Shown piece by piece: positions 4,969-37,000 of a stretch of 38,012 bases of DNA. The stretch's first letter is position 1. Every line of letters begins with the position of its first letter. Both the position numbers and the translations under genes were made by a program. The DNA is from an uncultured Clostridia bacterium (GTDB lineage: Bacteria > Bacillota > Clostridia > Christensenellales > CAG-138). The stretch covers positions 1 to 38,012 of the forward strand of contig CAMKES010000016.1 of NCBI GenBank assembly GCA_946411635.1, given 5' to 3'. A model generated the notes under the pieces. That model had not been told where the DNA came from and did not search any database. It saw only the letters and a list, made by a program, of their open reading frames with translations.

Positions 4969-7900
4969 ATGAAACGCACGAAAAAACCGGTATCCGTTGT
5001 TTTGGCGCTTCTTCTGATGCTCTGTCTGCTTCCGGCGAGGATCGCCGCGGCGGACGGTAACGGGACCGAAGCGAATCCGTACCTCTTTACGGGAGAGACG
5101 ACGGAGCTCGTCGACGGCGGGTATTACCTCGTCAACAGCGACGTGACGGTCAGCACCCGCATCGAGGTCAGCGGCACGGCGGTGCTGATCCTCGGCGAAG
5201 GCGCGACGCTGACGGCAAGCAAGGGCGTTCGCGTCGGAAGCGACAAAACGCTGACCATCCGCGGCACGGGCACGCTGATCGCAAGGGCTGACAGCAGTCA
5301 GGCGGCGATCGGCGGCAACAGCGTCGAATGGAGCGGCAAGATCGTGATCGAAGGCGGCACGATCCAGGCGACCGGCGGCTCAGGTGCGGCGGGCATCGGC
5401 GGCGGAACGTACGCCGGCGGAAACGAGATCGTCATCACCGGCGGCAACGTGACCGCGACCGGCGGCTTGAATTCGGCGGGCATCGGCGGCGGCGCGAACA
5501 ATAACTGGGCGGGCCGCTACGGAAATACCGGAACGATCACGATCACCGGCGGCACGGTCAACGCGAGCGGCAACGGTCCCGCGGCGGGCATCGGCGGCGG
5601 CGGTACGACGAGTTCCGTCAGTACCGTCTATGCCGGCAACGCAGAAGCGATCGTCATTACCGGCGGCAACGTAACGGCGACGAGTGGTACGGGTTACGGC
5701 ATCGGCGGCGGAAAGAATACGGGCGTATCGTCAAACAGCGGAACGGCGAATTCGATCACGCTGGGCTGGACGAACCCCGCCGACAGCATCACGGCATCGG
5801 GCTACAACGGCACCGCGGTCATCGTCGTCGAAGGCCAGAGCCTCTCCGACGGCACGAACACCTACGAAGGTCAGCTGACCGAAGAGCAGATCGAAGCGGC
5901 GGCGGGCAAGACGCTGGTTCCGGGCACGCTCGGGGACGGGTTCTATCTGATCGGACCGGACTGGTCCGTCGGCGCGATCAGAGCCACGAACAAGTTTACG
6001 CAGAACCCCGCGAACACGAGCGAATACATGCTGGAGACGACGCTCGCGGAGGGCAGTCAGATCAAGGTCGTGAAGATCGCTTCCGGCGCGATCGCAGCGT
6101 GGTATCCGGACGGGCTCAACAACGAGTATACGGTGGACGCCGCGCATGCGGGAACCAAAACGATCTATTTCCGCGAGACCTACAACAACGACTGGTCGGC
6201 GTTCGGCGGCCATATCTATATCAATGCGAGCCAAAGCCATTCGATCACCGTTGCGGACGGAATCGACTACGGCTCGGTCGTTTCGGATAAGACGACGGCG
6301 TATTCGGGCGAGACCGTTACGCTGACCGTCACACCGAAGAAAGGTTACGCACTGCAGACGCTGACGGTCCTCTCCGGAGAGAACGCGATCGGAGCGACGG
6401 GGAGCGGGAATCATACCTATACGTTCACCATGCCGGACGGCGACGTCACCGTCTCCGCCGTTTTCGCCTGGAGCACGGCGTCCTCGGATCATACGATCTT
6501 TACGGAATACGTCTTTGAAGCCGGTTCTGCCGGCTACAACAACGAAGGACCGGAGAACCTGATCGACGGCAATACGGGAACCAAGTGGTGCGCGACCCTC
6601 GGCAGCGGCCTGACCATCACGTTCCACGTCGACGTTCCCATTCTGCCCGTCGGCTACATCCTGACCACGGCAAATGACACGGCGGACAACGACGGGGCAA
6701 GAAACCCCACGGCATGGACCATCGAAGGAAGACTGACCGAAGATGACGAGTGGACGACGCTCGCGGCGAAGACGGACAACAACTCGCTGCCTGCCGCCAA
6801 CTTCACCGACACGGAATTCGTCGTGGACACCTCGAAGACGTGCAAGTATTTCCGGGTCACGTTCAGCTCGCTCAAGAACGGGACGACCTTCCAGCTTTCC
6901 GAGTTCCGGTTCTTCGGCGAGCTGGACGCGGTCGTACGGATCAGAGCGTGCGCGCCGACCTGCGTTTCCATGGGCTATGCGCGGGATTGCTGGTACAGCT
7001 ACGGGGAAGACGCGTACTATGAAGACGAAGCGTGCACGCGGCCGCTGAACCGCGAAGACGTGGAGATCCCGGCGACCGGCATCCATACGCTTGAAGATCA
7101 TCCCGCGGTCGAGCCCGTCGGCAATACGCCGGGCAACATCCACTACTGGTTCTGCACCGTCTGCCACAAGTACTTCGACGACGGCAACGCGGAACACGAG
7201 ATCACCGAAGAGGATACGATCGTCTACGGTCCCATCGACTATCTGGACGAGAACGGGAATCTGACGCATACCACCGGCGCGTTCTCCGTCGTCGCCTCCG
7301 ACGTCATGGAGTGGACGGCGGGCTGGTGGATCGTTCCCGGAGACGTGACCGTTAACGGCCGTATCAACGTAAACGGCGAAGTGCATCTGATCCTGCTTGA
7401 CGGCGCGACCCTGACCGTGACCGACGGCATCGGGGTCAACACGAGCGCCAACAGCCTCACCATCTATTCCCAGTCGCTCGGCGAGCACATGGGCGCGCTG
7501 ACCGCAGGCCCTGTACAGAACTATCATGCGGGCATCGGCGGCACGAAGGACGGCATCAGCAGCTACAACGCGGGCAACGGCCCCATCACCATCAACGGCG
7601 GCAAGATCTATGCAAAGGGCGGCTGGGGCGCAGCCGGCATCGGCGGCGGCCACAACGGAGCCGGATTCGGTCTTGTCACCGTCAATAACGGCGACATCGA
7701 CGCATGGGGCGGCGACGTCGGTCCGGGCATCGGCATCGGGTACGGACCTTCCTGGTATCTGGAACGCGCCAAAGTCGTGATCAACGGCGGCACCGTCGTT
7801 GCGCACGCCGGCAGCCACAGCGCCGCGATCGGCGGCGGCGAGGACGCCAACGCCGAATACATCACCATCAACGGCGGCAATATCACCGCGTACGGCGGCG

Positions 7901-10900
7901 AAGGTTCGGCGGCGATCGGCGGCGGCTATGTGCTCAACAGCAACCACGGGCACGGCGGCAACATCACAATCAACGGCGGCACGGTCAACGCCATTGCGGG
8001 CGCAAACGGCGCAGGCATCGGCGACGCAACCAATCTGAAGGATCACAGCCTGACCACCAACATCGTTCTGAACTGGACGAGCGAAACCGACTCTATCACC
8101 AGTTCCTCTTACACGTACGACAACCTCACGTTCGAAAAGGACTTTATCATTTCCGGCGCGGTTCCGGCGGAGCTTGCAACGGCGGCGAACATCGCGGGCA
8201 AGACCATCGTGCCCTATGAAGGAAAGAACGTAACGGTCACCTTCGTCTATGAACAGGGCGGGACCGACGTATTCCATGAGGTCACCACCGTCGAGGGCGG
8301 CGCCGTGCAGGATCCCGGCACGCCGATGAAGTTCGACAGCCTGTTCGATGGCTGGTATTATCTGAACGGCGGAAACGTCGTGCCGTTCGTCTGCGGTACG
8401 ACCACGGTGAGCGAAAACACGACCGTATTCGCGCAGTGGACCTCCACCGCCGGACAGACGGTGACGTATCTGGACGCGGAAGGCAGCGCCTGCTCCATCG
8501 ACAGCGGGTATACCGTCCTGAATGCCGGTATCCCTGCGGTCACCCTGACTGCGGGCTGGTACGTGGCGGCGCATGACGTCACCTTCGGCGAACGCATCAC
8601 GGTCAGCGGCGACGTGCATCTGATCGTTGCAAACGACGTAACGATGACCGCGCAGGGCGGCATTCAGGTCGGCGAAGGCAACAGCCTGACGATCTATCAG
8701 AACGCCGGGCAGGCCGAAGGCGAAGCCGTCGGCAAACTCGTCTGCAGCGCAACGGCCTATGCGGCGGGTATCGGCGGCAACGGTTCGGACGTCAAACACT
8801 CCGGCGTAATCACGATCAACGGCTGCACAATCAATTCCTCCGGCGGCAACAATGCGGCGGGCATCGGCGGCGGAAACCAAGGCGCAGGCACGGTCGTCAT
8901 CAACCGCGGCACGGTCAACGCATACGGCAGCAGCTACGCCTCGGCGATCGGCGGCGGGCACCAGGGCGCGGGAAACGTCACCATCAATGACGGCAGCGTC
9001 GTCGCAAGGACCTTCCGCGGCGCCGCGATCGGCGGAGGAAGCGAAGGCTTCGGTACCGTTGTCATCAACGGCGGCGTCATCGACGCGGCGGCGGACACCT
9101 CGCCGGGCATCGGCAGCGGTGAGCTTGCCGGCACCAACGTCACCATCAACGGCGGCACCGTCACCGCTGTGGGCGATTACTGGGCGGCAGGTATCGGTAC
9201 CTGTTATAACCATAAGGACGTGACCGTGGATATCACCATCAACGGCGGCACCGTCACCGCAACGGGCGGCAGATTCGGCGCAGGCATCGGCGGCGGCGCC
9301 ACGACGAACGTCAGCTCGATCACGATCACCGGCGGCGTTGTCGTTGCCAACGGCGGCCAGTATGCGGCAGCCATCGGCGGCGGCGGCGCAGACCTGGATC
9401 AAGGGCAAACCGGCGAAAAAGGCAATTGCGGCACGCTCGTCATCACCGGCGGTCAGGTCACCGCAAACGCCGGACAGTACGGCGTCGGGATCGGCAACGG
9501 AGGGACCTGCACTACCTCGGGAACGATCACGCTCGGCTGGACGGACAAAACAGACTTCATCAAAGCCACGAACTATAAAGGCCCGGTCTCCGTTGTCGAC
9601 GGGAAGGTTCTGACCGACGGCACGAACGACTATTACGGCACGCTGACGGATGAGCAGAAATCCGCGGCGGCGGGCAAGACGCTGACGCCGGGCATGGATT
9701 CGCTCAATTCCGTGACGATCGACGACGGAATCGAACACGGCACGGTCACGACGGATAAGAAGTACGCCAAGGAAGGCGACACCGTCACGCTGACCGTCAC
9801 GCCCGCGGAAGGATACCTGCTCAAGTCGCTGTCGGTCATGAGCGGCGAAACCGAAGTCGCAACGACGGGCGAAAACGGCGTCTATACGTTCACCATGCCG
9901 GACGGCGACGTCACCGTCACGGCGGAATTCGAGCCCGATTGGGATCATATCCCGGACCCGGGCTTCACGCTGTCCCCCGCAGAGGTCACGCTCGAAAACT
10001 TCGACGCGGACGGCTACATGGCGCTTTCGATCTTTACCGACGCGCTGACGCTCGGAAAGATCAGTGAATACGATGCGTATTATTTGGCAAACCAAGTCAA
10101 TGTCAAGTATTACGCGGGTACGCTGAGCTGCGGAGATGAAACGATCCCCTTCAAGGTATATTCCAACGCCCATGCGGGAACCGGCGAAAGCCACGTTTGC
10201 TTGTATAATCATCAAGGTCAGTCGGGCGAGATTGCGATCTATATCGATCCCGCCGTGCTCGCCCACGCCAAAGCCGGCGTCTATACCGGCACGCTGCACT
10301 ATACGAGCGGATGGGTGAGTAATGACGCACCCGATTTCACGGCGGAAGGCGCTTCCGGCGATATCGCACTGACGATGACCGTCATCGTCACGTATTCGGT
10401 CAACGTCGACCCGAACATCGCAAACGGCACGGTCGTTCCGTCCAAGACGAGGGCGGAGGCGGGCGAAACCGTCACGCTGCAGATTTCGCCTGCGGACGGA
10501 TACATGCTTGAAACCCTGACGGTCGTCGACGGAGAGAACAACCCGATCGAAGTCGGGACGGACAGAACCTTCGTGATGCCGGAGAGCGACGTCACCGTTT
10601 CCGCGACGTTCCTGAAATACTACGGGGTCTACGTCGGATCGACGCAGATCAGCGAACGGAACGCTTCCGACGTGCTCGGCGACGGCAAGGTCACATACGA
10701 TCCGGAAACGTATACGCTGACGTTCGCGGAGGCGAACCCGCCGATCACGGGGACGACCGACGGCGCGCTGATCCTCTCGCTGGAACCGAAGCTGATCATC
10801 AACGCGACGAAGGGGCTGAACCTTTCGTCCGACACGGCGTTCTCCGGGATCTACGTCGCGAGCGGTCCGCTGACCGTCAACGGCAACCTCAACGTGACGG

Positions 10901-13230
10901 TCATGGGGGCGAGCCAGTACTACGGTTACGGCGTCATCGGCATCCGCGGTGTCACGATCAACGGCAACGTGAACGTAAAGTCGGCCAGCTACGGGATCTA
11001 CGCGCCTTCTTCGGACGGCAGGGTCACGATCAGCGGCAACGCGGTCGTGGATGCAAAGAAGCTCGCGATCTTCGGTCTCAACGGCGTTGAGATCGGCGGC
11101 ACGGCAAACGTCCGCTCGGAAACCGACAACGCGCTGCAGTCGCCGAATGGACCGATCTCCGTCGCAGGCGACGCGGTGATCGATGGCAAGGGCAACACCG
11201 TCTCGGCCACGAGCAGCCTCAGCGCCGTCACGTTCGGCGGCAGCGCGGTCATCAAAAACGCAGGCGAGAACGGCATCCTTTGCCCGAACGCAACGGTCAC
11301 GGTCGCAAACGATCTCACCGTAACGGGCAGCAGCAGCGGCTGGGCGATCCAGGCGAACCAAGGCCTCGAGGTCGGCGGAAACCTGACGATCAGAAACATG
11401 AATACGAACGGCGCCTATGCGCCGAACAGTTCGATCCGCATCGTCGGCAATGCCGACGTCACGGTCGCGAACGGCTACGGACTGATGATCACGAGCAGCG
11501 GCGAGATCAACGTCGCCGGCAATGCGGACGTTAGGATCCTGAACAGCGGCGGCGGCATGCTCTTCTCGCCGAGCAGCGGCAAGGTCGTCGTCGGCGGGAA
11601 CGCAACGCTGATCGGCGACGCAACCTACTACTCGGTCTACGGCGCAGGCGGCATTGAGATCGGCGGAAACGTCACGATCGAAAATGGATACAGCGGCGGT
11701 TACGGTCTGTTCTCGACGAGCGGTCCGATCACCGTTGGCGGAAACGCGGACATCACGAGCAACGGCGTCTGCATCTCGATGGTCTGCCCGCAGGAGATCA
11801 AGATCAACGGCAGCGCGACACTGACCACCACGGGCAATCCGAGCGGGCATCTGTTCGCGCCGGCGAGCGGCCGGATCACGGTCGCGAAGAACGTCGTCTG
11901 CATCGGCAACAGTTCGTATACCGTTTACGGCAGCAAGGGCGTCACGATCGGCGGCAACGTGTCCTTCGACAACGAGACCGGCGTCGGCGTCTTCTCGGAC
12001 AGCGGCGACATTGAGATCACGGGCGACGTTGACGGCGCGTCCTACGGTTCGGCGATCAATGCCACCCACGGCGACGTGATCCTGCACGGCGTGGTGAACC
12101 TCGTAACGACGATGTCGGACGCGGTGGGCGTACATGCGAGCGGAAAGATCTTCGCCGAATATCTCTGGGACGTCACGGCGCCGATCGCCCTGTGCGGCCG
12201 GGAGGGCATCGTCCTCACCGACAACCTGTTCGTCGAGCTGCCGGAGAACGGCGAGGTGAAGGCGGTCGAGCTCAGCGTTTACGGACAGTCCGTCGAGGCA
12301 TGGACCGTCACCGCGCCGGAGAGCGACGAACCGTCCGATCACGTGAAGCTCGGCAGCACGTCGACGCGCATCGAATGCACGGTCGAGTGGGATCCCGCGG
12401 ACGTGGAGTTCAAGGGCACGACGCCGTACGTCGTCGCGAACGGCAAGGCGCAGACCCCGCGCTTCACCGTAAAGAACAAGGAGGACGGCAGCGTGATCGA
12501 TCCGCAGTACTACGACTTCACGTACCGCGAGAACACGAACGCCGGTACGGGCTACGTGTTTATCACGCTCAAGGGCCTGTATAAAGGTACGTGCCGCGCG
12601 TCGTTCAAGATCTATCTGCCCGCGACGACGACCACGACGGTCGCGAACGTCAAGGACGGCATCAAGATCAGCTGGGCGGCGGTCGAAGGCGCAGCGGGCT
12701 ACGTCATCTACCGCAGAGCGTGGAGCTCCACGACCAACGGCTGGACGACGTTCGAGCGCTGGAACAACACGACCGGGCTCACCTGGACGGACACCAAGGT
12801 CTACGCGGGCACGCGCTACCAGTACGGCGTCAAGGCGTACTTCGCGAGACGGCTCGATCCGGTCGTGAACGCGTACATCGGCGGCAACGTCGGCGACAAC
12901 TTCAACCTCGGCGAGGTCGGACCGCTCAAGACCACCGTCCGCATCACCACGCGCGTGCTGAACAGCGTCACCGCGGGCACGAAGCAGATGACGATCAAGT
13001 GGGCGGGCAGCTCGGTCTTCACCGGCTACCAGATCCAGTACGCGCAGAACAGCGCGTTCACCAAGAGCGTCAAGTCGTTCAAGATCGCGAATCCGAAGAC
13101 GGTCCAGACGATCGTCAAGAGCCTCAAGACCGGCACGACCTACTACGTCCGCATCCGCTCGTACCATGAGTTCAACGGCATGACGTACTTCGGCGAGTGG
13201 TCGAACGTGAAATCCTGCAAAGTGAAATAA
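4969..13230 (+). CDS. Giant secreted multidomain beta-helix repeat protein
   Basis: A 2,753-residue secreted protein, probably an adhesin or carbohydrate-binding surface protein. Rough layout: signal peptide 1-28; Gly-rich beta-helix block 41-280; small beta domain 320-420; bacterial-repeat (PF18998-like) domain 424-500; F5/8C discoidin-like domain 506-656; Cys-containing segment with HYWFCTVCHKYF 658-757; second beta-helix 758-1083; InlB B-repeat-like domain ending VFAQWT 1085-1160; third beta-helix 1163-1577; bacterial repeat 1579-1659; beta-sandwich 1661-1809; bacterial repeat 1810-1884; fourth helix block of VTINGN-type turns 1884-2454; Ig-like 2465-2552; two Fn3-like domains 2555-2753. 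About 20 copies of an [A]GIGGG-type turn occur in the first three blocks. There is no LPxTG motif or membrane tail. The start at 4969 has AGGAGGG 5 bases upstream. Function is inferred from domains only. Confidence 0.88.
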   Translation: MKRTKKPVSVVLALLLMLCLLPARIAAADGNGTEANPYLFTGETTELVDGGYYLVNSDVTVSTRIEVSGTAVLILGEGATLTASKGVRVGSDKTLTIRGTGTLIARADSSQAAIGGNSVEWSGKIVIEGGTIQATGGSGAAGIGGGTYAGGNEIVITGGNVTATGGLNSAGIGGGANNNWAGRYGNTGTITITGGTVNASGNGPAAGIGGGGTTSSVSTVYAGNAEAIVITGGNVTATSGTGYGIGGGKNTGVSSNSGTANSITLGWTNPADSITASGYNGTAVIVVEGQSLSDGTNTYEGQLTEEQIEAAAGKTLVPGTLGDGFYLIGPDWSVGAIRATNKFTQNPANTSEYMLETTLAEGSQIKVVKIASGAIAAWYPDGLNNEYTVDAAHAGTKTIYFRETYNNDWSAFGGHIYINASQSHSITVADGIDYGSVVSDKTTAYSGETVTLTVTPKKGYALQTLTVLSGENAIGATGSGNHTYTFTMPDGDVTVSAVFAWSTASSDHTIFTEYVFEAGSAGYNNEGPENLIDGNTGTKWCATLGSGLTITFHVDVPILPVGYILTTANDTADNDGARNPTAWTIEGRLTEDDEWTTLAAKTDNNSLPAANFTDTEFVVDTSKTCKYFRVTFSSLKNGTTFQLSEFRFFGELDAVVRIRACAPTCVSMGYARDCWYSYGEDAYYEDEACTRPLNREDVEIPATGIHTLEDHPAVEPVGNTPGNIHYWFCTVCHKYFDDGNAEHEITEEDTIVYGPIDYLDENGNLTHTTGAFSVVASDVMEWTAGWWIVPGDVTVNGRINVNGEVHLILLDGATLTVTDGIGVNTSANSLTIYSQSLGEHMGALTAGPVQNYHAGIGGTKDGISSYNAGNGPITINGGKIYAKGGWGAAGIGGGHNGAGFGLVTVNNGDIDAWGGDVGPGIGIGYGPSWYLERAKVVINGGTVVAHAGSHSAAIGGGEDANAEYITINGGNITAYGGEGSAAIGGGYVLNSNHGHGGNITINGGTVNAIAGANGAGIGDATNLKDHSLTTNIVLNWTSETDSITSSSYTYDNLTFEKDFIISGAVPAELATAANIAGKTIVPYEGKNVTVTFVYEQGGTDVFHEVTTVEGGAVQDPGTPMKFDSLFDGWYYLNGGNVVPFVCGTTTVSENTTVFAQWTSTAGQTVTYLDAEGSACSIDSGYTVLNAGIPAVTLTAGWYVAAHDVTFGERITVSGDVHLIVANDVTMTAQGGIQVGEGNSLTIYQNAGQAEGEAVGKLVCSATAYAAGIGGNGSDVKHSGVITINGCTINSSGGNNAAGIGGGNQGAGTVVINRGTVNAYGSSYASAIGGGHQGAGNVTINDGSVVARTFRGAAIGGGSEGFGTVVINGGVIDAAADTSPGIGSGELAGTNVTINGGTVTAVGDYWAAGIGTCYNHKDVTVDITINGGTVTATGGRFGAGIGGGATTNVSSITITGGVVVANGGQYAAAIGGGGADLDQGQTGEKGNCGTLVITGGQVTANAGQYGVGIGNGGTCTTSGTITLGWTDKTDFIKATNYKGPVSVVDGKVLTDGTNDYYGTLTDEQKSAAAGKTLTPGMDSLNSVTIDDGIEHGTVTTDKKYAKEGDTVTLTVTPAEGYLLKSLSVMSGETEVATTGENGVYTFTMPDGDVTVTAEFEPDWDHIPDPGFTLSPAEVTLENFDADGYMALSIFTDALTLGKISEYDAYYLANQVNVKYYAGTLSCGDETIPFKVYSNAHAGTGESHVCLYNHQGQSGEIAIYIDPAVLAHAKAGVYTGTLHYTSGWVSNDAPDFTAEGASGDIALTMTVIVTYSVNVDPNIANGTVVPSKTRAEAGETVTLQISPADGYMLETLTVVDGENNPIEVGTDRTFVMPESDVTVSATFLKYYGVYVGSTQISERNASDVLGDGKVTYDPETYTLTFAEANPPITGTTDGALILSLEPKLIINATKGLNLSSDTAFSGIYVASGPLTVNGNLNVTVMGASQYYGYGVIGIRGVTINGNVNVKSASYGIYAPSSDGRVTISGNAVVDAKKLAIFGLNGVEIGGTANVRSETDNALQSPNGPISVAGDAVIDGKGNTVSATSSLSAVTFGGSAVIKNAGENGILCPNATVTVANDLTVTGSSSGWAIQANQGLEVGGNLTIRNMNTNGAYAPNSSIRIVGNADVTVANGYGLMITSSGEINVAGNADVRILNSGGGMLFSPSSGKVVVGGNATLIGDATYYSVYGAGGIEIGGNVTIENGYSGGYGLFSTSGPITVGGNADITSNGVCISMVCPQEIKINGSATLTTTGNPSGHLFAPASGRITVAKNVVCIGNSSYTVYGSKGVTIGGNVSFDNETGVGVFSDSGDIEITGDVDGASYGSAINATHGDVILHGVVNLVTTMSDAVGVHASGKIFAEYLWDVTAPIALCGREGIVLTDNLFVELPENGEVKAVELSVYGQSVEAWTVTAPESDEPSDHVKLGSTSTRIECTVEWDPADVEFKGTTPYVVANGKAQTPRFTVKNKEDGSVIDPQYYDFTYRENTNAGTGYVFITLKGLYKGTCRASFKIYLPATTTTTVANVKDGIKISWAAVEGAAGYVIYRRAWSSTTNGWTTFERWNNTTGLTWTDTKVYAGTRYQYGVKAYFARRLDPVVNAYIGGNVGDNFNLGEVGPLKTTVRITTRVLNSVTAGTKQMTIKWAGSSVFTGYQIQYAQNSAFTKSVKSFKIANPKTVQTIVKSLKTGTTYYVRIRSYHEFNGMTYFGEWSNVKSCKVK

Positions 13231-26515: not shown

Positions 26516-26600
26516 GTGCCATCGAGAGTGCGCGAGAGACAAGCTCCGTGACCGCACAGCAACCTGCCTCAGTAAGGTGCTAAAACTTGCATGATGGCGC
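26516..26600 (+). promoter_or_regulatory. SAM-I (S-box) riboswitch aptamer, orphan
   Basis: P1 pairs GCCATC (26518-26523) with GATGGC (26593-26598). Conserved S-box elements are present in order: ATCGAGAG, the P2 internal loop ending GTGACC, CAGCAACCTG, the hairpin leading to AAGGTGCTAA, and CTTGCATGATGG. The S-box normally senses S-adenosylmethionine and switches off methionine or sulfur genes by termination. Here no plus-strand gene follows: the next one is 4.3 kb away with its own promoter, and the next gene runs in the opposite direction. Identification rests on motif order and P1 pairing. Confidence 0.87.
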
Positions 26601-33661: not shown

Positions 33662-33672
33662 ACCCGGAAAAG

Positions 33673-33704
33673 AAAAGCGGGACCCCGATCGGGGTCCCGC
33701 TTTT
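33673..33704. terminator. Bidirectional terminator between kinase and M28 operons
   Basis: A 14-bp perfect stem (33673-33686 with 33691-33704, loop GATC), AAAA and TTTT at the ends. Confidence 0.85.
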
Positions 33705-33713
33705 GCGTATACG

Positions 33714-34943
33714 TTACGATCTTCTCTTCCGGAACAGGTATTCGTCCAGTTCCTTTTTGACCGAATCGGGGATCTCGCGGTCCACCGGGCAGACGGCAGC
33801 CGCCGCCATGCGGCGGGTGAACTCCGCGATGAACGCGATGTCCTTCCGCAGCTGATCCATCGAGAGCACGTCCGGCCGGTCGAAGCGGCAGTGGATCGGC
33901 GCCACGCTGCCGCCCGCGATCCGCGCGAACGAAAGCGCGGGCACGCCCTTGTCGGCAAACGGGGTGGAATCGCTGGAATACACGCCGGTCTTCGCGTCCA
34001 CCGGGAAGCCGAGCTCCGCGCCCATGTAGGTGATGTAATGCGCAAGCTTCTCCTCGGCGGAAACGCGCGCGAGGAACTTGCCCATGATCGTGCCGATCAT
34101 GTCGAGGTTGACGTTCAGCGCGATCTTGTCGAGCTCCGCTTCGTGATCGCGGACGTACGCCTTCGAGCCCAGAAGCCCGCGCTCCTCGCTGCCGCAGAAC
34201 ACGAACCGCAGGCCGTAGTTCAGCGGTTTGTTCTTCAGCGCCTCCAGAACGCCCAGAAGCCCCGCGCAGCCGGTCATGTTGTCGTACGAGCCGTGCGAGA
34301 GCGCGGTCGTGTCGTAGTGCGCGGTCAGCGTGATCCATTCGTCGCGCTTTCCGGGAAGTTCGGCAACGACGTTGTGCGATTCGCCCTCGTACTCGCGCTG
34401 GCGGATCGCGATGCGGATTCGCTTCGTTTTGTTTTTCACAAGCTCCACGGCGGATGAAACGTGCAGCATCGCGCAGAGCACCTTCCGCTCGTCGCCGACG
34501 ACCGCGGCTCTGAGGTCGCGCTCGTCGATGTCGCGGTTGCCGTTGTGCAGATCGCCGTACTGGAACAGGATGCCCTTCGCGCCGGCTTTCATCAGGTCCT
34601 GATACCCGAAGAAGCCGATGCCGGACGTGTCCATCAGCACGATCTTGTCCTTCGCGCCGGCGACGGAGACCTTGTCCTGCGCGGGCATGTAGTACAGCTC
34701 GCCTTCGACCTCGCCGCTGCCGCAGCAGAAGAAGCCCTTCGCGGGGATCTCCCGGCCGTCGGCGTACACGTGCGCTTCTTCGATCTCGCCCATGGGGACG
34801 GGGAAGGACTCAAGCCGGGCCTCCGCGCCGAGCCGTTCACAGTGCGCCTTCAGGTATTCCGCAACGCGCAGCTCCTCGGGCGTGCCGCTGCGGTGGACGA
34901 AATCGGTATCCGTAAAGATCCGTTTCCATTCACGGTTGTTCAT
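33714..34943 (-). CDS. M28 family zinc aminopeptidase-like protein
   Basis: A 409-residue co-catalytic dizinc peptidase. Ligand/catalytic motifs: TAHYDTT (His, Asp), GSYDNMTGCAG (bridging Asp), CGSEERGLLGS (catalytic Glu and ligand Glu), NVNLDMIG (Asp) and PIHCRFD (His). An inserted PA-like region (about 60-150) precedes the last part of the catalytic core. There is no signal peptide, so it should be cytoplasmic. It is the last gene of the six-gene operon and starts 6 bases after the stop of the 50-residue membrane protein; AAAGGA lies inside that gene. The substrate is not known; the neighbours raise the possibility of peptide or membrane-peptide turnover. Confidence 0.92.
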   Translation of the reverse strand: MNNREWKRIFTDTDFVHRSGTPEELRVAEYLKAHCERLGAEARLESFPVPMGEIEEAHVYADGREIPAKGFFCCGSGEVEGELYYMPAQDKVSVAGAKDKIVLMDTSGIGFFGYQDLMKAGAKGILFQYGDLHNGNRDIDERDLRAAVVGDERKVLCAMLHVSSAVELVKNKTKRIRIAIRQREYEGESHNVVAELPGKRDEWITLTAHYDTTALSHGSYDNMTGCAGLLGVLEALKNKPLNYGLRFVFCGSEERGLLGSKAYVRDHEAELDKIALNVNLDMIGTIMGKFLARVSAEEKLAHYITYMGAELGFPVDAKTGVYSSDSTPFADKGVPALSFARIAGGSVAPIHCRFDRPDVLSMDQLRKDIAFIAEFTRRMAAAAVCPVDREIPDSVKKELDEYLFRKRRS

Positions 34944-34949
34944 GCGCGC

Positions 34950-35102
34950 TTATTTTCCTTTCGCTTTTTTGTTCTTCGCCAGCGCGACGCAGAGCGTGAT
35001 CGCAACGGCGGCGACGGCAAAGACGATGCCGACGATCAGGATGATCGTGGGCAGGCTGCTCGTTTCGACCGGTTCGTAAGCAATGTCGGAAAGAATGTTC
35101 AT
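34950..35102 (-). CDS. Tiny single-span membrane protein p50
   Basis: A 50-residue protein, too short for common gene-calling limits. A perfect AGGAGG lies 8 bases before ATG 35102. Layout: short acidic N-terminus (LSDIAYEPVETSS), one hydrophobic span (about 18-42, PTIILIVGIVFAVAAVAI...), and a Lys-rich tail (KNKKAKGK). The charge pattern predicts N-out/C-in. It resembles its two upstream neighbours in plan (short polar head, Val/Ala/Ile-rich span, Lys tail) and shares their upstream sequence. No known family recognised. Confidence 0.8.
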   Translation of the reverse strand: MNILSDIAYEPVETSSLPTIILIVGIVFAVAAVAITLCVALAKNKKAKGK

Positions 35103-35106
35103 GGTT

Positions 35107-35431
35107 GTTACCTCCTGTGAGCGATTTGTATTGAGGAACCCCGCCCGGACGGCGGCGTTTCGATCCGGTTACTTTTTCCGCCTGATCAGCACAACGGCGG
35201 CGACGGCGGCGAGAATGAAAACGGAAAGGACGATGATCCAGACATACGTCGATCCCATGGAAAAGTCGGAAGGCGTGGTCACGGCAGTTACCTCCTGTGA
35301 GCGATTTGTATTGAGGAACCCCGCCCGGACGGCGGCGTTTCGATCCGGTTACTTTTTCCGCTTGACCAGCACGATGGCGGCGACGGCGGCGAGAATGAAA
35401 ACGGAAAGGACGATGATCCAGATGTACGTCG
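35107..35431 (-). repeat. Tandem 145-base duplication in the small-protein cluster
   Basis: 35107-35251 and 35287-35431 are direct copies with a 180-base period. The first 75 bases (35107-35181 versus 35287-35361), covering intergenic DNA, ribosome site and 3' coding end, are identical; the remaining 70 or so differ at about six positions. The copy units start upstream of one small gene and end within the coding span of the previous one. Confidence 0.9.
35169..35282 (-). CDS. Tiny single-span membrane protein p37
   Basis: A 37-residue protein starting at GTG 35282, with AGGAGG 8 bases upstream. A polar head (TTPSDFSMGST) is followed by a hydrophobic span beginning YVWIIVLSVFILAA and a basic RRKK end. 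It is a near copy of p48 from the span onward (about 145-base DNA duplication). The tail resembles the end of sortase substrates but no LPxTG motif is present. Function unknown. Confidence 0.75.
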   Translation of the reverse strand: MTTPSDFSMGSTYVWIIVLSVFILAAVAAVVLIRRKK

Positions 35432-35495
35432 TGTCCGTCGGGGACGAGTCAAGCAGGAACGGCGGCGCGATGGCATCCGAAAGCAGACGAAACAT
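35349..35495 (-). CDS. Tiny single-span membrane protein p48
   Basis: A 48-residue protein, ATG at 35495 with AGGAGG 8 bases upstream and only 15 bases after the stop of the polytopic protein. The head (MFRLLSDAIAPPFLLDSSPTD) is longer than in p37; the span and KRKK tail are almost the same. Predicted N-out/C-in. The number of silent or conservative changes between the p48 and p37 spans (TYIWIIVL versus TYVWIIVL; IVLVKRKK versus VVLIRRKK) suggests that the protein is under selection. Confidence 0.8.
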   Translation of the reverse strand: MFRLLSDAIAPPFLLDSSPTDTTYIWIIVLSVFILAAVAAIVLVKRKK

Positions 35496-35510
35496 GGGCA
35501 ATACCTCCTG

Positions 35511-35846
35511 TCAGAATAGGTTTGTGAGGAGCAGTCCCGCTCCGAAGGAAGCGGCGTTTGCGATGAGGGAAACGAGGAACGGCCGTTTCACCCCGGTCAG
35601 AGACCGGTAAACGAGCCATTCCGCGACAACCGCGGCGGCTTCGAGCACCGCGAGCATGGCTGCGTACGGCAGACTTGTCAGCGTCGTGCCGAGCAGCAGA
35701 AGCGCGTTCACGAGCGGATTCGTCATCACGTTCGCGAGCAGTACGACGAGGAGCTCCTTTCCGCGCATGCCCGAGAGCAGGCAGACCGGCACTTCGATCG
35801 CTTCCGTCAGCAGAAGCGCGAGGACGAGCGCTATTTCGTACGGCAT
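35511..35846 (-). CDS. Uncharacterised 111-residue polytopic membrane protein
   Basis: About four hydrophobic segments, with conserved-looking polar spots LTEAIEVPV, NVMTNPLVN and EWLVYRSL inside or between them. I do not recognise a named family. The ATG at 35846 lies within the last codons of the MFS gene (16-base overlap, different frame) and has no ribosome site, so translation is probably coupled to the transporter. The stop TGA is followed at once by the p48 ribosome site. Context suggests a membrane complex with the MFS protein and the three tiny proteins. Confidence 0.8.
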   Translation of the reverse strand: MPYEIALVLALLLTEAIEVPVCLLSGMRGKELLVVLLANVMTNPLVNALLLLGTTLTSLPYAAMLAVLEAAAVVAEWLVYRSLTGVKRPFLVSLIANAASFGAGLLLTNLF

Positions 35847-36868
35847 AGCAGCAGTCCCGGCACGAGCAGCGCCGCAGAAAGCGCGGCGAGCAGACCGTGG
35901 ATCACGGGCGATGCGGGCGGGAGCGCGCGGAGCAGCGCGGGGACGAGCCCCAGGAACAGCGCCGCGGTCAGAAGTCCGAACGCCGTGCCCTTCGCGGAAC
36001 GCCACACCTTTGCCGCGGCGAACAGCGTGACCGGCATCGACATGTTGAACAGAAACAGCGCAAGCAGCGTCAGCGCCGGATGCAGCGGGAAGAACAGCAG
36101 CACCGCGCAGAGCCCGAGCGACACGACGGACGCCGGGATCGCGCCGAACCGGTCGCTGAGGAACCCGCCCGCCGCTTTGCCGAGCGCCAGACACAGCACC
36201 GGGATCAGCCCCGCGAGGACCGCGGGCAGACCGGAAAGCCAATCGCCGGTCGAGAACGCGGCGGTAAAGCCCGTAAACGAGCGCAGCGCCACGACGAGAA
36301 ACAGCAGGACGAGCGCGAGCACGCCGCCCTTCGGCACGGCGAAGGAGAGCGGCGCGTTATGCGAGCCCTCTTTGAACTCCGTTCTGCCCGAAAGCAGGAT
36401 CGCCGCGGCGCAGATCGCCATCAGCGCGCACACGATCGCCGGAAGCGCGGGCAGCGTCTTTGCGTAAAACCGTCCGAGAAAGAGCCCGATCGCGCCGGGG
36501 GAGACGAACACGCCGAGCGGACCCGCCTTGTCGCCGGAGCCGTTCAGCACCTCGATCCCGCCGCCGACGTGGAACGCGCCGTTGCCGAGGCCCGCCACGA
36601 TCATTGCGGCGAAGGGGATCGCGGTCAGCAGCGATCCGGCCGCCACGAGCGCGCAGCCGATCGCGGCAAACAGCAGATTGCGGTCCGCACGGTCCGCGAC
36701 GATGCCGAGCGGAAGCTGGAACAGAAACGCGCAGGCGTTGTACAGCACCGCGCCGATCAGAAGCTGATCGGTCTTCAGCGCGCTGAAGAACAGCAGCGCG
36801 CAGCAGAAATCCACCGCCGCATGCGCGGCGGACAGGACCGCGGTTTTTCCGGTTTGCGATATGCGCAC
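35831..36868 (-). CDS. Major facilitator superfamily transporter
   Basis: A 345-residue transporter with about 11-12 spans, on the short side for MFS (usually 390 or more). The loop 2-3 motif is GIVADRADRN, and GNGAFHVGGGIEVL lies in an early span, similar in style to the fosmidomycin-resistance/sugar-efflux group; the second half has GKAAGGFLSDRFG. Substrate unknown. I choose GTG 36868 (VRISQTGKTAVLS) because GGGAGG (36874-36879) lies 5 bases upstream; the ATG at 36916 has no ribosome site. First gene of the operon that ends with the M28 peptidase. Confidence 0.87.
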   Translation of the reverse strand: MRISQTGKTAVLSAAHAAVDFCCALLFFSALKTDQLLIGAVLYNACAFLFQLPLGIVADRADRNLLFAAIGCALVAAGSLLTAIPFAAMIVAGLGNGAFHVGGGIEVLNGSGDKAGPLGVFVSPGAIGLFLGRFYAKTLPALPAIVCALMAICAAAILLSGRTEFKEGSHNAPLSFAVPKGGVLALVLLFLVVALRSFTGFTAAFSTGDWLSGLPAVLAGLIPVLCLALGKAAGGFLSDRFGAIPASVVSLGLCAVLLFFPLHPALTLLALFLFNMSMPVTLFAAAKVWRSAKGTAFGLLTAALFLGLVPALLRALPPASPVIHGLLAALSAALLVPGLLLCRTK

Positions 36869-37000
36869 AGGCACCTCCCGATCGAACGGCTGCGGACGGC
36901 GTCCGTACGGATTCATGATCCGCAGCGCGGCTCATACAATACAATATGAAGAAAAAATCGCCGAACGGGCATCGCGCGGCCGCGAAAGCGGCGGCTTTGC

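Follow-up and report, generated by a model that had tools for sequence, protein, structure and literature searches.

The core of a six-gene cluster on the minus strand of the window (38,012 nucleotides, contig CAMKES010000016.1 of assembly GCA_946411635.1, from an uncultured Clostridia bacterium of the GTDB order Christensenellales) is a three-part membrane module consisting of a divergent protein of the major facilitator superfamily (MFS), a four-helix protein of 111 residues (p111) and one to six single-span proteins, represented in the window by the tiny proteins p48, p37 and p50. The genes, their conservation, the pairing of the MFS protein with p111, a motif common to the single-span partners, their predicted topology and an exchange of large partners for tiny ones across a tree of the MFS proteins were computed here. 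From these, the cluster is given about an even chance of encoding a multi-subunit transport complex in which an MFS protein is joined by p111 and by interchangeable single-pass subunits that attach to p111; that these parts form a complex, dock and transport anything is conjectured from sequence.

Conservation of the three-part module

Genomes with a match to the p111 profile number 40 among the 297 searched from the order, 55 among 392 from the class and 17 among 299 from the phylum; the three sets partly share genomes, and the counts include longer proteins with a C-terminal p111. Forty-seven stand-alone p111 loci, chosen by a short open frame and a strong score, were examined, 27 from the order (including five of the same genus) and 20 from the class and phylum; six weaker short-frame matches (G463, G471, G517, G609, G603, G483) and the fragments G006:C2 and G762 lie outside this set. 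At 46 of the 47 loci, p111 has an MFS gene of one and the same subfamily as its same-strand neighbour, namely at 26 of 27 in the order (25 full genes and, at L152, an incomplete gene close to the end of the contig) and at all 20 in the class and phylum. A single-span partner with a tail rich in lysine and arginine (K/R) is present in 45 of the 47 (41 by script, L167, and L235, L236 and L237 by eye); in the script's count, 20 loci have it behind p111, 18 have it between the MFS and p111 genes, one has it in both positions and one has it ahead of MFS.

A profile built from the MFS proteins of the module gave 18 matches at E <= 1e-20 in 61 relatives, and no other MFS protein of those genomes scored at that level. 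Seventeen of the 18 lie beside p111 and belong to the 17 genomes of the 61 that have a stand-alone p111; the eighteenth is a fragment ending where the locus, and apparently the contig, ends. Distances among p111 proteins follow those among MFS proteins over 43 loci with a correlation of r 0.82 (maximum 0.21 in 2000 permutations), a value that shared descent within one operon could alone yield. The suggestion of an earlier, sequence-only reading of this DNA that the tiny proteins may be subunits or regulators of an MFS/polytopic complex is the one that fits best, the trio being kept across order, class and phylum and the physical complex itself staying conjectural.

The MFS protein of the window belongs to a divergent subfamily, and its match to Pfam MFS_1 (PF07690) is weak at 28.8 bits, below the curated cut-off of 33.4 bits, which one of its relatives exceeds (37.7 bits). 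Thus the claim that known families explain both ends of the cluster is sound for the M28 peptidase at the downstream end (117.8 bits against a cut-off of 21.3 bits) and less so for the MFS end. The MFS loop motif A has the form G-x3-D and occurs in both halves of a protein of the superfamily. By eye, motif-A-like loops are present in both halves of the subfamily, with G55, D59, G234 and G235 invariant in a 25-member alignment (A5) and D239 invariant in a 12-member alignment (A1) only; H16, N96, H100, R196 and K231 are likewise invariant in A5. About ten hydropathy peaks were counted in the window's protein, and a low-confidence structure model has 12 helices of at least 12 residues. At L237, the MFS gene of the module carries six in-frame stops within the profile match and is probably broken in that genome.

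Searches around the module for known regulators and systems were negative. With Rfam, no cis-regulatory RNA was found upstream of MFS on its own strand in the window and 30 of the 47 loci; matches near module loci to the thiamine pyrophosphate (TPP) riboswitch, the L10 leader and the T-box lie elsewhere or on the other strand, and a tRNA gene precedes MFS at L164. Four proteins compared with the PADLOC defence models gave no match at E 0.1. Judged from titles and the openings of abstracts, none of the papers listed in literature searches recognisably describes the module, and the terms 'MFS' and 'Clostrid' are absent from the main text of one paper on small membrane proteins (PMC10903887).

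The p111 protein and the N-terminal segment of its partners

Ten positions of p111 are invariant among 26 sequences (T14, E18, N39, T42, N43, E69, E76, N97, S100 and G104), nine of them polar. Its K/R-rich loops lie between spans 1 and 2 and between spans 3 and 4, so that both ends are predicted to be outside, a topology consistent with fused proteins in which an ectodomain precedes span 1. An AlphaFold model from seven sequences has four helices (mean predicted local distance difference test score, pLDDT, 72.6; predicted template modelling score, pTM, 0.55), and a two-fold hairpin repeat that places E18 onto E76 and N39 onto N97 was detected with hhalign (probability 68%, score 23.9, E 5e-5, against a maximum score of 18.6 in 60 column shuffles). 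The window's p111 matched nothing in Pfam or NCBIfam at E 1, no member among 26 did better than E 0.06 against Pfam, the p111 profile found no relative among solved structures, and one fused p111 protein gave noise only (E 0.56) in the same comparison.

The partners of p111 take several forms, which are miniature proteins of 37-84 residues without a signal peptide, signal-peptide proteins of about 67-114 residues, and proteins of about 190-320 residues with a signal peptide, an ectodomain, a span and a K/R tail (signal peptides being assigned by hydropathy and by eye, not by a dedicated predictor). L153, L155, L157 and L160 each combine two kinds, a large partner with a signal peptide next to a tiny one. 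The N-terminus of the tiny partners consists of a few hydrophobic residues, an Asp, further hydrophobic residues and a Pro (S-DIAYEP in p50, S-DAIAPP in p48). Among 80 deduplicated tiny partners, an Asp lies within the first 16 residues in 79, and 69 have a Pro at +4/+5 relative to the first Asp, whereas 1000 shuffles of the N-terminal stretch averaged 17.1 such partners and never exceeded 28; an earlier, differently drawn pattern was present in 39 of 51 partners (shuffle mean 8.8, maximum 18).

In the signal-peptide partners, the segment directly follows a cleavage-like site (for example A/DVIVEP, the slash marking the site). It was counted in 21 of 23 by the first pattern and in all 24 by a widened pattern admitting Glu and a following Thr/Ser, 19 of these 24 having Pro at +4/+5; these counts have no shuffle control, and in the widened one L236 was entered as its first 36 residues and the misplaced 215-residue start of L224 was excluded. 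The p111 proteins with long frames open with A/DMGPKPS, A/NSAEPPS or the like, 28 of 30 having a signal-peptide-like site of the form [AGS]/[DN] and 26 of those 28 a Pro at +4/+5, in a search that required Asp or Asn and picked the site by the preceding hydrophobic stretch, not by the Pro. Of the two lacking such a site, L207 is a stand-alone p111 whose upstream frame is long (see L241 for comparison). On the combined counts, the Asp-x3-4-Pro segment therefore accompanies p111 in all three architectures, tiny, signal-peptide and fused. Two uncharacterised families recur in the class and phylum (L168, L192-L222), one with the order signal peptide-A/DMGPKPSV...-p111 and the other signal peptide-A/NSAEPPS...-p111.

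The charges of the tiny partners are distributed asymmetrically about the span. In 79 of them, K/R and D/E number 422 and 67 in the C-terminal tails, versus 69 and 248 in the N-terminal tails, and the positive-inside rule favours an outside N-terminus in 78.

The gene cluster of the window and the history of its array

Six minus-strand frames with their starts and Shine-Dalgarno (SD) sites are present as the sequence-only reading had described them, joined by an overlap or short gaps, and the three tiny single-span frames are each preceded by a perfect AGGAGG. MFS and p111 overlap by 16 bp, and the subsequent gaps are 15, 66, 66 and 6 bp in order. An ATG at 36916 would lengthen the MFS protein by 16 residues to 361; the GTG start is the most likely one since the relatives begin within about three residues of that point (348 residues). 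A tandem duplication of 167 bp with 92% identity covers p48 and p37, and its last 96 coding bases contain 14 differences, versus two between the 66-bp spacers. Since these spacers are nearly identical, p37 and p50 owe their AGGAGG sites to copying of one sequence, and the two sites are not independent. The hairpin beyond the M28 gene, read by eye and absent from the hairpin scan listing, is a likely transcript end.

Features of the cluster in the window, with the arrays of two further species
Feature	Position	Strand	Remarks
MFS-type transporter, distinct divergent subfamily, 345 aa	35831..36868	-	GTG start at 36868; Pfam MFS_1 28.8 bits
p111, 111-aa four-helix protein	35511..35846	-	profile alignment and helix model
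p48, 48-aa single-span partner, motif D-AIAPP, KRKK tail, predicted N-out	35349..35495	-	SD AGGAGG
66-bp spacer p48/p37 with hairpin and SD	35283..35348	-	2/66 differences from next spacer
p37, 37-aa single-span protein, GTG start, partial p48 duplicate	35169..35282	-	167-bp duplication
66-bp spacer p37/p50 with hairpin and SD	35103..35168	-	2/66 differences from preceding spacer
p50, 50-aa single-span partner, motif D-IAYEP, K-rich tail	34950..35102	-	same-family frames in relatives
M28 family peptidase, 409 aa	33714..34943	-	Pfam PF04389 117.8 bits, cut-off 21.3
Hairpin AAAAGCGGGACCCC-GATC-GGGGTCCCGCTTTT then CTTTT	33668..33704	-	read by eye
Arrays of the two species with pS 0.08	L038 3.7-4.5 kb; L007 1.85-2.65 kb		

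The array is found in 11 same-genus genomes, the window's and those of ten relatives, and two others of the genus (G002 and G020) have a more distant MFS-p111 pair. The 11 genomes yielded 46 tiny frames, 2 to 6 per genome, of which 39 have an SD site of at least 4 nt, the script choosing the starts having favoured those with an SD site. Judged by this recurrence, the tiny frames exceed chance. Similar tiny-protein subtypes reappear across species; p48 aligns with 18 tiny proteins of relatives, and tblastn with p50 alone finds tiny frames of other same-genus genomes, down to E 1e-7, frames of its family being present in the arrays of the 10 other genomes. A tiny-protein profile recovered p48 (E 7e-13) and p37 (E 9e-10) in the window's genome, the window's three tiny proteins having themselves been rows of the profile. 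Small frames adjoining p111 in relatives thus exist, and the earlier proposal of genuine tiny genes stands.

Selection on the tiny frames was gauged from the ratio of nonsynonymous to synonymous differences per site (pN/pS). It is 0.29 over 12 greedily chosen pairs (0.24 in the N-terminal tail, 0.37 in the span, 0.23 in the C-terminal tail), a figure lowered by the filter of at least 65% protein identity, and 0.60, 0.25, 0.42 and 0.42 in four genome pairs whose arrays were paired by position with no identity filter. In the latter comparison, the neighbours gave 0.17-0.26 (p111), 0.30-0.34 (MFS) and 0.13 (M28). The tiny frames look like constrained genes, overall held less strictly than their neighbours.

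The history of the array was read from a midpoint-rooted tree of 43 MFS proteins, which includes same-genus relatives of the window's protein and not that protein itself. The tiny-array relatives of the window form a starred clade inside a starred clade, and the deeper branches L146 and L174 carry a large partner; a second large group of tiny-only loci is placed elsewhere on the tree. The nesting would be accounted for if the ectodomain was lost, or else regained twice, and in the window's lineage the large partner was probably replaced by a tandem array of miniature ones. Between G011 and G021, pS is 0.08 in the array versus 0.29 in the flanking p111 and MFS genes, which suggests recent exchange, so the tiny array may move between species as a cassette.

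Elsewhere in the window, 4969-13230 on the plus strand encodes a 2753-residue protein with a signal-peptide-like start; a long frame antisense to it, probably a shadow, matched nothing in Pfam at E 0.001. An S-adenosylmethionine (SAM) riboswitch lies at 26516-26600 on the plus strand (Rfam RF00162, 57.7 bits).

Proposed function and its alternatives

Bacterial MFS proteins are usually regarded as single-chain transporters. In the complex proposed here, the MFS protein would be the transporter and p111 its constant four-helix partner, and the tiny proteins would be exchangeable single-pass accessory subunits with the N-terminus outside and the K/R tail inside. Their Asp-x3-4-Pro segment, which corresponds to the N-terminus predicted for the larger partners of other loci after signal-peptide cleavage, would dock on the outer face of p111, and their span would pack against MFS or p111, tuning assembly, stability or specificity.

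Tiny proteins are described on pumps of the resistance-nodulation-division (RND) type, AcrZ (49 aa) with AcrB and WatS1 (55 aa) with WatABO (PMC10710835). The likeness lies in a tiny protein tuning a membrane transporter, and no relation by descent is claimed; under the definition adopted here of an AcrZ-type protein, a protein of roughly 50 residues with one span whose gene accompanies that of a transporter, the tiny proteins of the window are of this type. Unlike AcrZ and WatS1, they accompany an MFS-type protein and a four-helix partner, occur in several tandem copies, share a motif with larger signal-peptide proteins and are known from genes alone. The small protein modulators in the consulted parts of PMC10710835 act on transporter classes other than MFS. 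Two eukaryotic systems offer analogies only: MFSD1, a lysosomal dipeptide uniporter, has in GLMP a single-pass type I accessory subunit (PMC11252000) and so joins an MFS protein to one single-pass partner with a luminal domain, no p111 counterpart or miniature form being described in the consulted parts of that source, and the MFS protein MCT1 has basigin or embigin as an ancillary surface glycoprotein (PMC12894981). The proposed system would belong to a known kind, transporters with small accessory subunits.

A number of observations weigh against a transport complex of this composition. L163 has p111 and a partner without MFS, no partner is visible at L152 and L242, and none of the five loci inspected that encode p111 fused behind an ectodomain has an MFS gene, so that p111 can act without MFS. 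The motif is missing from 12 of the 51 partners in the earlier count, and p37, which lacks the motif Pro, fails both counts. The tiny genes are overall under weaker constraint (0.25-0.60) than p111, MFS or M28. The MFS assignment is itself weak; 8 of 25 subfamily members match Pfam MFS_1 at E <= 0.01, the assignment otherwise leans on hydropathy and motifs judged by eye, the structure model is poor (mean pLDDT 51) and was left unused, and the MFS profile found no solved structure at E 0.01. The sequences share descent (the MFS proteins of L233 and L234 are identical), so the counts are not independent trials.

An unlikely alternative casts MFS and p111 as biogenesis factors for Asp-x3-4-Pro proteins, which they would insert, protect or mature while transporting nothing. 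The occurrence of the motif in all three architectures and the nine invariant polar residues of p111 would suit such a role, against which stand the transporter loop motifs that the MFS protein retains by eye. The sole search for motif bearers elsewhere, that of the window's genome with the tiny-protein profile, gave the three module matches and one weak match (E 0.015). It is rather improbable that the tiny proteins are instead cargo, namely signalling or antimicrobial peptides that variable multi-copy arrays encode and that MFS and p111 export or insert. Tandem duplication, the variation in copy number within the genus and the closeness of the G011 and G021 arrays at synonymous sites speak for this; however, anchored proteins of about 190-320 residues occupy the place of the tiny proteins elsewhere, the N-terminal tail is not diversifying in the filtered pairs, similar subtypes recur across species, and leader or double-glycine sites were not noticed by eye, no search having been aimed at them. 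Slightly more doubtful is a flippase-type exporter that would move a lipid or an envelope precursor and be tethered to the cell wall by its partner, the ectodomain of the large partner resembling two SH3-type repeats. The ectodomains of the large partners do show by eye a repeated 'PG...G...W' pattern, but those of two large partners had no Pfam match at E <= 1 (their membrane tails alone matched), one large partner had no solved relative at E 1, and no wall gene was seen by eye to recur constantly in the listed surroundings of module loci.

The other two possibilities, both raised by the sequence-only reading, fared worse. It is very improbable that the tiny proteins leave the cell as hydrophobic peptides which the M28 enzyme then processes or recycles. 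An M28 gene does lie directly downstream of the array in 8 of the 11 same-genus genomes (three are without it), but it occurs in one of the 47 module loci, a set that includes just one of those eight carriers, and MFS with p111 lies upstream in six of 79 M28 loci from named genomes, 11 of which hold less than 1.5 kb upstream and are uninformative. The 409-residue protein is a clear member of its family, with plausible H-x-D, EE and NLDMIG stretches in a sequence unaligned to any structure, and no signal peptide was seen in it by eye, so it could not easily process an extracytoplasmic peptide. M28 was rejected as a functional partner on these co-occurrence counts; it looks like a neighbour or passenger at the level of the genus, outside the conserved module. 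Least probable of all, and hardly credible, is that the tiny proteins are sortase-type surface anchors lacking LPxTG. The genome has two sortase genes, and the tail of p48 slightly exceeds the cut-off of the LPXTG-anchor model TIGR01167 (16.4 against 15.9 bits; p37 scored 15.7 and p50 was not listed), but the script found an LPxTG-like site before the span in none of 70 partners, and none is visible by eye in the window's three. A sortase anchor was rejected on this absence; as read from the sequences, the sortase-like tail is a membrane span followed by K/R, which the tail matches fit.

A wider proposal can be put forward tentatively, with the balance leaning somewhat against it. Here p111 would be a new membrane domain that recognises an extracytoplasmic [D/N]-x3-4-Pro segment. 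One branch would have fused the segment and an ectodomain ahead of p111, and another would have added MFS and kept the segment on a separate single-pass subunit, which could shrink to fewer than 50 residues and multiply into tandem arrays of specialised mini-subunits, making a new type of multi-subunit MFS system. In many bacterial families, an MFS subfamily appears to be tied to a partner with four helices as well as to subunits with one span, several of which are shorter than 50 residues. If this is true, it would give a role to small proteins that have been overlooked and help to explain their arrays, and three unannotated protein types would be linked by one N-terminal motif that is testable by mutation.

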